Source: a virus. Taken from it: a DNA stretch of 31,512 nt. Under the pieces are notes generated by a model. That model made no database searches and was not told the DNA's origin. It worked only from the letters and a program-made list of their open reading frames with translations. The stretch is taken from IMG/VR virus record IMGVR_UViG_3300025648_000060, positions 1-31,512 of that record; one strand, given 5' to 3'. Position numbers and translations under genes: made by a program. Below, piece by piece: positions 12,392-28,111 of this stretch (its first letter is position 1; each line of letters starts with the position of its first letter).

Positions 12392-12392
12392 A

Positions 12393-19380: not shown

Positions 19381-20115
19381 TTAAATTACTTCTATTTTGT
19401 TTTTACTTTGTTTTTTATAATATTCTCCCTGAATAATTCTAGTCCAGCTATTCATAAGTTGTTGTGGTGAAGTAGGTGGATTAAATATCTTTGTAAAATT
19501 ATTTTTGATCCAGTCAATCATTTTAATAACCTGTTCAAATTGATATTCTTCTATAAGAAATTTACAAGCTTCTCTTTGTGTAGTATTTCCATAATATCTT
19601 TTATTTATAGGATCTATTTCACACATTGCTTTAATAATTTCTGCTATCTCATCTTTTTTATTAGAGTCTGACCCCAGACTGTCCCCTGTCTGTTCTACTC
19701 TACTTAACTCTACTCTACTTAACTTAACCTTACTTAATATATTTTCTTTTAACTCTTTTCCTTTAGAAAAATATAAAGATTTAATTTCTTCTGGTATAGA
19801 ATTTATTATTCTTATAATACCTTCCTCAACACTAGGATTTAAAGATTGATTTTTTTTATGATTAATAATAATTATCCAATCTTTATCTTTTAAGATTTTA
19901 TTATCTCTAATAAATCTATTTAAGATATTTTCTACAACTTCCATATCAAGCCCAACTTCAAAAGCAAATCTTTTCGTTCTTATCTCATATACTCCAGCAA
20001 TATTACAAAGTGGATTTGTTAGAAGATAAAGAAAACATAATTTTTCTATTGGATCTAATTTTTCTATATATGGATCAGTCCAGAAACTATCATTTACATA
20101 TCTTTTTTTTGACAT
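19381..20115 (-). CDS. Replisome organiser / DnaD-like replication protein
   Basis: A 244-residue protein. The N-terminal part (SKKRYVNDSFWTDPYIEKLDPIEKLCFLYLLTNP, about residues 2-35, followed by YEIRTKRFAFEVGLD) is the winged-helix start of phage replication initiation proteins. A low-complexity linker, VKLSRVELSRVEQTGD, follows, as is common in this family. The C-terminal half (EACKFLIEEYQFEQVIKMIDWIK) is helical and could bind the helicase loader or ssDNA. It should recruit the host replication machinery. It has a structured 5' leader with its own promoter. Confidence 0.72.
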   Translation of the reverse strand: MSKKRYVNDSFWTDPYIEKLDPIEKLCFLYLLTNPLCNIAGVYEIRTKRFAFEVGLDMEVVENILNRFIRDNKILKDKDWIIIINHKKNQSLNPSVEEGIIRIINSIPEEIKSLYFSKGKELKENILSKVKLSRVELSRVEQTGDSLGSDSNKKDEIAEIIKAMCEIDPINKRYYGNTTQREACKFLIEEYQFEQVIKMIDWIKNNFTKIFNPPTSPQQLMNSWTRIIQGEYYKKQSKNKIEVI

Positions 20116-20131
20116 ATTTATTAAATTAAAA

Positions 20132-20239
20132 ACTAACGATTGTTAATCGCCGAAGTGTTTTAATGATTTTCCCTTTAATATATATCCCTCCTTGCGAGTG
20201 AGATATATATTAAAGGTCGCAAGAATAACCTTTCGGCTT
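20132..20239 (-). promoter_or_regulatory. Structured, pseudoknotted leader of the replication gene
   Basis: On the minus-strand transcript GCCGAA (20237-20232) pairs with UUCGGC (20154-20149), enclosing a perfect 15-bp hairpin CCUUUAAUAUAUAUC/GAUAUAUAUUAAAGG (20216-20202 with 20186-20172). The loop contains UCGCAAG (20197-20191), which is fully complementary to CUUGCGA (20223-20217) just 5' of the hairpin, giving a 7-bp pseudoknot. A short hairpin CGAU/AUCG (20149-20137) precedes the coding part. The transcript start predicted from 20246 begins at the first base of this structure. It resembles a cis-acting RNA; no known riboswitch class was recognised. Confidence 0.68.
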
Positions 20240-20245
20240 GATACT

Positions 20246-20254
20246 ATTATATCA
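20246..20254 (-). promoter_or_regulatory. Extended -10 promoter for the replication gene
   Basis: TGATATAAT on the minus strand. TTGACT (20269-20264) lies only 12 bases upstream. The predicted start is about 20239, exactly at the 5' edge of the structured leader. Confidence 0.6.
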
Positions 20255-20287
20255 TATAAAAAAAGTCAAATAAATAGTTTTCCCCAG

Positions 20288-20472: not shown

Positions 20473-20817
20473 TTATAACATTTTTTTAATCTCTTTTATT
20501 TCTTTTAAGACTTTTTCAATATCTTTCTTTGCTTCTACATTTGTTTCGTAATCAAGATCACTTCTTATTTCTGAATGTTGTGACTCTAACTTCTGTCCTA
20601 CCATTATGATAGAGAGTAAAACTAATTGTATAAAGGTCTGTGAGATCCAAGATACAGTTGTAAATGCCCCACCTGATAATGCTTGTGGTAATGAGATAAG
20701 AGCCAATATAGCAAAGATAATAGCACAATACATTGTTCCTACTGCATTTGTTATCTTTACTGCTACTTTATCAAGGAAAGACATTTTTGATTTATGGATT
20801 ATATGTGATTTTTTCAT
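20473..20817 (-). CDS. DUF1003-like membrane protein
   Basis: A 114-residue protein with two transmembrane helices (about residues 29-49 and 60-79), joined by GGAFTTVSWISQ, then IIMVGQKLESQHSEIRSDLDYETNVEAK and a C-terminal coiled coil. The IIMxxQxxx...R..LDYxxNxxAxxxI pattern is that of the DUF1003 family. Such genes are common in bacterial, including Patescibacteria, genomes and uncommon in phages. It may be an acquired host gene acting at the membrane. Its promoter lies eight bases before the ATG. Confidence 0.72.
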   Translation of the reverse strand: MKKSHIIHKSKMSFLDKVAVKITNAVGTMYCAIIFAILALISLPQALSGGAFTTVSWISQTFIQLVLLSIIMVGQKLESQHSEIRSDLDYETNVEAKKDIEKVLKEIKEIKKML

Positions 20818-20825
20818 ATATTTTC

Positions 20826-20834
20826 ATTATAACA
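20826..20834 (-). promoter_or_regulatory. Extended -10 promoter for the DUF1003-like gene
   Basis: TGTTATAAT on the minus strand, with eight bases between the -10 box and ATG 20817, so the leader is one or two bases. It is divergent from the plus-strand promoter at 20871. Confidence 0.55.
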
Positions 20835-20870: not shown

Positions 20871-20899
20871 TTGACAGTATTATATCATTTTGATATAAT
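20871..20899 (+). promoter_or_regulatory. Perfect sigma70 promoter for a candidate small RNA
   Basis: TTGACA (20871-20876), 17 bases, TGA-TATAAT (20894-20899), a full consensus with an extended -10. The predicted start is about 20906. Nothing that looks like a start codon and long ORF follows; the transcript reaches the strong hairpin at 20976-21010. Confidence 0.8.
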
Positions 20900-20905
20900 G
20901 TGTTG

Positions 20906-21010
20906 ATAAAGTGTCCGAAACAGCCTTTTATAGACTGATAACATAAAGATACTTTCTCGAGTTTAATATATTAAATAAAAACACCCAAAATAACAAAAAG
21001 GGTGTTTTTA
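20906..21010 (+). ncRNA. Candidate ~105-nt small RNA
   Basis: The segment runs from a perfect promoter to a strong intrinsic terminator and holds no plausible ORF. The 5' part GTGTCCGAAACAGCC is less AT-rich than its surroundings. AAAG/CTTT and a TTTAATATATTAAA palindrome (20962-20975) could form hairpins. It is divergent from the DUF1003-like gene. No known RNA family was recognised. It could be a regulator of phage or host genes or a decoy. Confidence 0.6.
20976..21010. terminator. Bidirectional terminator
   Basis: TAAAAACACCC (20976-20986) pairs with GGGTGTTTTTA (21000-21010) as an 11-bp stem with a 13-base loop. A-runs and T-runs flank it on both strands. It ends the candidate small RNA and screens the plus-strand cassette from leftward and rightward transcription. 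Confidence 0.75.
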
Positions 21011-21011
21011 T

Positions 21012-21032
21012 ATGTTATTTAAAAAATAACAT
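21012..21032. repeat. 9-bp palindrome ATGTTATTT/AAATAACAT
   Basis: Perfect inverted repeat with a 3-base spacer just after the terminator. It could be a binding site for a dimeric regulator or part of the terminator. The remaining bases up to 21122 hold nothing else that was recognised. Confidence 0.45.
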
Positions 21033-21122
21033 TCAGGGTATATTTATAAAAATTTATGAAAAAATAATAAAATATCTTTTTTTGAAGTATTTCTACTTCC
21101 TAAATACTATACCATATTTTAA

Positions 21123-21131
21123 TGGTATAAT
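21123..21131 (+). promoter_or_regulatory. Extended -10 promoter for the plus-strand cassette
   Basis: TGGTATAAT on the plus strand, 41 bases before ATG 21173. No -35 match is present. Confidence 0.58.
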
Positions 21132-21172: not shown

Positions 21173-21430
21173 ATGAAAAGGAAAGAAAATTATCCTACCA
21201 AACATCATCGTAAATGTCGTTCAAATGGTGGAAACTCTGAAGCAAGAAATATCTCAATAGTTAGTAATAAACAACACGAAGCATGGCACACTTTATTTGA
21301 AAATAAAGACCCATACGAAATAGTTGCTATTATTAATAGAGTATGGATTGACCCAGACCTTGAATTTGTTTGTATTCCACGACATAATTATTCACTATTA
21401 AAAACAATTTACAATGAAAAAGGTAGATGA
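21173..21430 (+). CDS. HNH-like small protein in plus-strand cassette
   Basis: An 85-residue protein from ATG 21173 (a TTG at 21152 would add seven residues). TKHHRKCRSNGGNSEARNIS then NKQHEAWHTLF follows the HH...GG...N...H..WH arrangement of small HNH-like proteins seen widely in AT-rich and Patescibacteria genomes. It lacks the second zinc pair, so activity is uncertain. It ends in TGA and overlaps the next gene by 17 bases. Confidence 0.62.
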   Translation: MKRKENYPTKHHRKCRSNGGNSEARNISIVSNKQHEAWHTLFENKDPYEIVAIINRVWIDPDLEFVCIPRHNYSLLKTIYNEKGR

Positions 21431-21797
21431 CACAATCATTCTATCCAGAAGTTTATGGTGTCCAATTTGTTCAAGACTAGGAAGACCACATTCAGGAAAC
21501 TTATTTGCAGTTTGGCGACATGACCACGAAGATATGATAATTAAAACTTGTCATCAAGGTAATATAAGTGGAGTCACTCCTCATTTTATTATTTATGATA
21601 CCCCTTATAAAGTTATAGGAGGAAAAGTATTAATCACTCAAATTTGTGGTATGGATAATTGTGGTATTGAAATAGATACTACACAACCAAATGCAACAGT
21701 TAGATTTGTAAAAGAAAATCTTTTATGGCTACCTGAAAATGACTTTCTTGCTCTAGTAAACAAATGGCACGGAAACACTGGATACAACTTAATCTAA
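21414..21797 (+). CDS. Cys-rich protein of plus-strand cassette, unknown
   Basis: A 127-residue protein with WCPICSRLGRPHSG, then HDHEDM, CHQG, and CGMDNCGIE. The Cys and His residues suggest one or two zinc sites. It overlaps the upstream gene and is followed at once by a terminator, so the two genes form a closed unit. No family was recognised. It could be a moron gene with a host-directed role, by arrangement only. Confidence 0.6.
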   Translation: MKKVDDTIILSRSLWCPICSRLGRPHSGNLFAVWRHDHEDMIIKTCHQGNISGVTPHFIIYDTPYKVIGGKVLITQICGMDNCGIEIDTTQPNATVRFVKENLLWLPENDFLALVNKWHGNTGYNLI

Positions 21798-21823: not shown

Positions 21824-21894
21824 TACCCCTAGAAGCCAAAATTTGCCCCTACATTCAATTTAATTATAAAAGTTGATAAATCCCTCATATAGAT

Positions 21895-21926
21895 AAAAAA
21901 CTACTCATTTTATTGGGTAGTTTTTT
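21895..21926. terminator. Bidirectional terminator between RusA gene and cassette
   Basis: AAAAAACTACTC (21895-21906) pairs with GGGTAGTTTTTT (21915-21926) as a 12-bp stem (one T.G) with an 8-base loop. U-runs occur on both strands. It can stop leftward lysis/RusA transcripts. The bases 21824-21894 hold nothing recognised. Confidence 0.78.
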
Positions 21927-21965
21927 ACTGAGTTGGTATTTCTCACTCCTTATGGATTAATCTAA

Positions 21966-22313
21966 TTATACCACTTCTATTTCTATTTTAGTATTTTTAT
22001 CAACAATGAATGTATCATTAAAACTTTTTATATGTTTCATTGTATCATTTTCTAATATTCCAGCCTTTACCATTCCATCTAATAAAAACTTTTTAGCAAA
22101 AGCAATATTATCTGGATCTTTTCTGTAATCTTTTACATACCAAGTAATATTAATAGATACTGGATATTTTTCTACTTTACTTTTACGAGATAATTGTTTT
22201 ATAACTTCATCTGTATTTTTCTTTTTAATAGAAGCACCAAAAAATCTATTAGATCTTTCTGCTTTTATATAAGAATTAAGATCAGTTAATTCTCCTTGAA
22301 TAGTAAATTTCAT
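21966..22313 (-). CDS. rusA: RusA-family Holliday junction resolvase
   Basis: A 115-residue protein with the RusA pattern: RKDPDN (D66 and D68), LLDGMVKAGILEND (D79 and D90). These match the catalytic aspartates of E. coli RusA in RxDLDN...D...WLDD. The N-terminus IQGELTDLNSYIKAER is also typical (start of the RusA barrel). It would cut branched recombination intermediates before packaging. It begins directly at the lysozyme stop (TAAATG). Confidence 0.85.
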   Translation of the reverse strand: MKFTIQGELTDLNSYIKAERSNRFFGASIKKKNTDEVIKQLSRKSKVEKYPVSINITWYVKDYRKDPDNIAFAKKFLLDGMVKAGILENDTMKHIKSFNDTFIVDKNTKIEIEVV

Positions 22314-23965: not shown

Positions 23966-24031
23966 ATGATTGAAATTTTAGGTTGGATATTTTTATTCTT
24001 AATAGTGTGGGGAATTTTAAGTCCTAGATAA
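23966..24031 (+). CDS. 21-residue membrane peptide on the opposite strand
   Basis: MIEILGWIFLFLIVWGILSPR is almost entirely one hydrophobic helix ended by a short basic tail. It has its own extended -10 promoter and sits in the lysis cassette between the XhlA-like and the transglycosylase gene. It may be a toxin-like or lysis-modulating peptide; alternatively it is chance in a short intergenic gap. Confidence 0.4.
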   Translation: MIEILGWIFLFLIVWGILSPR

Positions 24032-28102: not shown

Positions 28103-28111
28103 ATTATAGCA
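28103..28111 (-). promoter_or_regulatory. Extended -10 promoter for the connector gene (leaderless)
   Basis: TGCTATAAT with exactly six bases before ATG 28096. No -35. Confidence 0.58.

Follow-up and report, generated by a model that had tools for sequence, protein, structure and literature searches.

The unit at positions 20871-21011 of this phage genome probably encodes a stand-alone small RNA which, judging by its transcription signals, would be of a known kind and has no known homologue. The window, by which we mean the whole stretch of DNA analysed, is a complete IMG/VR virus record of 31,512 bases. Its genes include those for a terminase, a major head protein, a GroEL-like chaperonin, a lysozyme, a RusA-like resolvase and a replication protein of the DnaD-like/replisome-organizer type. 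They lie on the minus strand nearly throughout, the plus-strand exceptions being two small genes at 21173-21797. The unit sits at the border of the lysis and replication genes. A different small RNA occupies this same border in three related phages, which argues that the window unit is probably a real regulatory RNA.

Predicted promoter, terminator and RNA body

The unit consists of the following features:

20871 to 20899, plus strand: promoter of the small RNA, TTGACA-17-TATAAT with a TG extension, 12/12
20879 to 20899, no strand: perfect inverted repeat, ATTATATCA-TTT-TGATATAAT, giving an extended -10 each way
20879 to 20906, minus strand: opposing promoter-like site, TCAACA-16-TATAAT with TG, 10/12, pointing towards the DUF1003 gene and rep
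20906 to 21010, plus strand: predicted small RNA, about 105 nt, no ATG; z -3.6 for the whole RNA
20975 to 21011, plus strand: predicted intrinsic terminator, symmetrical, with a 12-bp stem, a 13-nt loop and a T-rich 3' arm

The -35 hexamer TTGACA occupies 20871-20876 and TATAAT occupies 20894-20899, with a spacer of 17 nt, and the TG ahead of the latter completes an extended -10 element, TGATATAAT, at 20891-20899 on the plus strand. The perfect plus-strand promoter described in an earlier note on this DNA is thus confirmed. It is the only 12/12 promoter with a TG in the window; a second 12/12 promoter lies on the minus strand within a gene and lacks the TG, and 12/12 promoters with 16-18 nt spacing are expected 0.1 times per shuffled window. 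Weak promoter-like sites number 77 over the whole window against 77.3 by chance, so the weight falls entirely on the strength of the promoter at 20871-20899. The -10 word that it contains, TGNTATAAT, occurs 17 times in the window, compared with 4.9 expected (0 of 100 shuffles reached 17), and 13 of the 17 copies are intergenic, in DNA that makes up 10% of the sequence. This distribution identifies TGNTATAAT as the predicted promoter signature of the phage itself, which would drive other genes as well. Only the copy at 20891 has a full -35 hexamer at the proper distance.

About 75 nt downstream of the promoter begins a hairpin with a T-run, as the earlier note had proposed, with a perfect stem of 12 bp rather than 11 (20975-20986 paired with 21000-21011; dG -14.3, z -4.6). 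Among hairpins with a perfect stem of at least 9 bp, at least four G-C pairs and a T-rich 3' side, it is alone in 31.5 kb, where 0.03 are expected per shuffled window, and none of 60 shuffles placed a promoter and such a hairpin at most 160 nt apart. Because it is symmetrical, the hairpin could stop leftward transcription as well.

The description of the intervening 105 or so bases as free of a plausible ORF also holds: a transcript from the 20891 signature, with a predicted start at about 20906, meets no ATG ahead of the hairpin, and the plus strand has no ORF of at least 20 aa. The longest GTG or TTG frame in the predicted RNA is 11 aa, and the opposite strand at 20906-21010 carries no gene, just one 22-aa TTG frame. 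A stem near the 5' end, AAAGUGUC/GAUACUUU, is not significant by itself (z -0.85).

Neighbouring genes and possible overlapping promoters

The genes and signals on either side are:

19381 to 20115, minus strand: rep, replication protein (DnaD-like helicase loader/replisome organizer), PHROG 1701, E 3.7e-18
20473 to 20817, minus strand: DUF1003 membrane protein, 114 aa, Pfam PF06210, E 6e-7, divergent from the small RNA
20826 to 20834, minus strand: extended -10 of the DUF1003 gene, TGTTATAAT, 8 nt ahead of the ATG
21123 to 21131, plus strand: extended -10 of the downstream operon, TGGTATAAT, separate from the small-RNA promoter
21173 to 21430, plus strand: HNH-like small protein, 86 aa, by motif only, no Pfam match, 46% identity to a homologue in the related record L024
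21414 to 21797, plus strand: 127-aa cysteine-containing protein, zinc-ribbon-like by motif only

The unit had been described as divergent from surrounding minus-strand genes. That is true of the left side, where DUF1003 and rep lie, and not of the right, where both genes are on the plus strand with their own promoter.

The inverted repeat at 20879-20899 has a single perfect copy in the window and is possibly an operator or a pair of overlapping back-to-back promoters. From the positions of the -10 elements, the predicted starts of the small-RNA promoter and of the opposing site at 20879-20906 lie about 34 bp apart. An 18-nt element, TTGAYASTATTATATCAT, is common to the promoters of rep (20238-20255) and of DUF1003/small RNA (20871-20888); sites resembling it with at most three mismatches number 3 against 0.74 expected, and it may be a common operator.

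The leader of rep (20116-20254, minus strand) can form two long interlocking helices, TTCTTGCGA/TCGCAAGGA and CCTTTAATATATATCTC/GGGATATATATTAAAGG, with a score of 57 compared with at most 29.5 over 40 shuffles. The same topology, built from other sequences, is found upstream of rep in L024 and in a second related record, L008, and most of the other relatives tested do not stand out. No Rfam match was found for the leader in the window, L008 or L024. We regard it as a candidate pseudoknot or two-state switch RNA.

Small RNAs at the same border in related phages

Searches for relatives of the window RNA agree with the earlier impression that nothing known matches it: Rfam (15) gave no match to the region at the gathering cut-off, and when the limit was relaxed to E 10 its matches were at chance level. 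A BLAST search of the phage collection with the region was negative too, and DNA and model searches of about 100 related records yielded no secure homologue. The proposal that the RNA is previously undescribed therefore stands as far as the databases searched, with the qualification that phage-encoded small RNAs are themselves a well-known kind (review PMC12197685). DNA matches of 15-18 nt in two records (G017 and G044) fall inside coding sequence and were set aside as chance. The best match of a single-sequence covariance model was L008, at E 0.003-0.056 depending on the search, and G077 matched at E 0.018; with about 90 records searched, such E values are not significant. L008 was rejected as a homologue, as it leaves the top matches once the terminator is omitted. 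By eye, homologues of the DUF1003 gene (L001-L005 and L086) have no similar divergent gap.

The different small RNAs at this border, reached through relatives of the replication protein and the lysozyme, are:

L277, 1575 to 1473, minus strand: family small RNA
L008, 4473 to 4361, minus strand: family small RNA
L024, 2410 to 2311, minus strand: family small RNA

Each is about 100-130 nt long, with promoter-like sequence, a terminator and no ORF seen, and each is encoded opposite to the early genes, where the lysis and replication genes meet. The three are mutually homologous, sharing a 5' hairpin, YAGG-UUAAU-CCUR, followed by ACU; read by eye, the alignment shows C-G as the outer pair of this hairpin in L277 and L024, and A-U in L008. 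A model built from the three RNAs gives its own members 92-104 bits; as it was trained on them, these scores are not independent evidence. The model yielded no convincing further members. When IMG/VR was scanned with a pattern of the L008/L024 5' hairpin, the other matches looked mostly like coding sequence and none was convincing by eye; L277 came separately. At the gathering cut-off Rfam matched neither the L008 nor the L024 RNA, and L277 had sub-threshold matches only. When the 4 kb upstream of rep were scanned in 52 relatives, five promoter-terminator units without an ORF were found, two of which are L008 (there L220) and L277.

The window RNA resembles this family in length, in being terminated, in having no ORF seen, in lying opposite to the early genes and in its place at the lysis/replication border, but it lacks the family's 5' hairpin and the ACU. 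The family model matches the window in the terminator part only, so we treat the window RNA as an analogue by place and architecture and not as a demonstrated member.

These phages also bear on the possibility of an attenuated 5' leader, in which the HNH/127-aa operon would begin with this transcript and the hairpin would be a regulated terminator, read through conditionally. The operon is on the same strand, the HNH gene starts about 160 nt past the hairpin, the L024 small RNA is likewise followed on its own strand by an HNH homologue, and the hairpin loop and 3' arm are partially duplicated at 21023-21048. However, the HNH operon owns the extended -10 at 21123, as the operon in L024 seems to own a separate promoter-like -10, and no competing anti-terminator is apparent in the fold. 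Moreover, past the terminators of the L008 and L277 RNAs the same strand carries no gene of 45-50 aa or more, which makes a leader or attenuator less likely there and, by analogy, in the window. We consider this explanation unlikely.

Relatives of the replication protein in four further records (L009 and L012-L014) belong to phages that seemingly read TGA as sense; L009 and L013 were aligned under code 25, and in the window TGA appears to serve as a stop. These relatives point, weakly, to hosts of the Absconditabacteria/Gracilibacteria type (Patescibacteria). A terminase search of genome contigs gave only matches to a bacterial MAG (40%) and to a contig from a Nanoarchaeota MAG (37%), and no host was assigned.

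Proposed action of the unit, and probable leaderless genes

As a whole, the evidence is in our judgement best explained, and with reasonable likelihood, by a stand-alone phage small RNA that most likely tunes the early/replication side of the genome. According to its signals, a host-type RNA polymerase would start at about 20906 and stop at about 21010, yielding a non-coding RNA of about 105 nt. The promoter overlaps, back to back, the minus-strand promoter-like site aimed at DUF1003 and rep, and from the geometry of polymerase footprints a polymerase on one of the two would exclude the other. Tuning might then work through promoter competition together with termination of leftward read-through, in the manner of lambda pO/oop beside gene O; alternatively, the RNA might base-pair in trans with an mRNA, possibly one of the host. 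A role as a replication primer RNA was considered too. The searches for a phage target gave no signal: among the phage translation starts covered, 88% of shuffled RNAs reach a best target equal to or better than that of the window RNA, and pairing with the leaders of rep, DUF1003 and HNH gave p values of 0.2-0.6 against shuffled RNAs; host targets or short seeds remain compatible with these values.

A second alternative, which we find quite unlikely, gives the hairpin the main role of a two-way terminator shielding the early genes from late leftward transcription, the short transcript being incidental and the RNA without a function of its own. It would account for the symmetry of the hairpin and its T-rich tails on both sides, for the back-to-back promoter words and for the arrangement to the right, where two plus-strand genes separate the hairpin from the next minus-strand gene, at 21966, with which the late operon ends. 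Yet such a role has no need of a 12/12 plus-strand promoter with a TG, and a terminator-like hairpin already stands between the convergent operons, at 21873-21929.

The stand-alone small RNA that we favour has a parallel in lambda, where pO is directed against the replication-gene transcript and has been proposed to tune, through polymerase interference, how much transcription reaches the origin (PMC3985674). Lambda oop is likewise a short RNA adjoining the origin and the replication genes, with a promoter opposing their transcript, and the window RNA is, like oop, opposite to and upstream of a replication gene, but here the DUF1003 gene intervenes and the replication protein matches the DnaD-like/replisome organizer type, not lambda O. 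Whereas oop is antisense to cII, the window RNA faces no annotated gene on the other strand, and the window yielded no cII-like gene. As to sequence, the comparison of oop with the window RNA consists of the absent Rfam match. Bidirectional sigma-70 promoters, as described in PMC10268837 (citing Warman et al. 2021), have symmetrical -10 elements and starts 7-25 bp apart. In the window, too, an inverted repeat supplies a -10 both ways, but as two whole elements back to back, and the spacing of the starts lies outside the 7-25 bp class; competition between two promoters is therefore the better description.

A broader proposal is that regulatory RNAs of a fast-evolving class occupy a fixed place in these phages, always opposite the early genes at the lysis/replication border, and act with the structured rep leader to time production of the replisome organizer, their sequences turning over while their position and architecture persist; we hold this to be unlikely. 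Most known phage small RNAs come from phages that infect a small number of cultivated bacteria (examples in PMC12197685). The window RNA and the three-member family come from uncultivated phages and mark a defined locus for a systematic search for regulatory RNAs, and their interest lies mainly in a possibly recurrent regulatory-RNA locus in such phages.

Elsewhere in the window, at 28111, 23657, 12389 and 11771 (minus strand), the -10 hexamer of TGNTATAAT ends exactly 6 nt before an ATG; in the copy at 20834, also on the minus strand, the distance is 8 nt. From this spacing the genes at the first four positions are probably leaderless. It also suggests that two genes start at an ATG downstream of the TTG starts given by the ORF caller, at 12392 and 23660. 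A signature so often found 6 nt ahead of an ATG lets gene starts and RNA genes be called in phages of this type. It is very improbable that the unit itself encodes a leaderless or near-leaderless micropeptide from the GTG at 20911 (MSETAFYRLIT), since the frame has just 11 codons and lies 11 nt after the -10, whereas the clear leaderless cases all have ATG at 6-8 nt. In favour of this reading are the apparent use of leaderless genes by the phage and a 21-codon frame that follows an extended -10, at 23967.

That 21-codon frame, MIEILGWIFLFLIVWGILSPR, is hydrophobic and lies at 23966-24031 on the plus strand, 9 nt behind TGTGATATAAT and between minus-strand genes. It is possibly a gene for a micro-membrane-protein.
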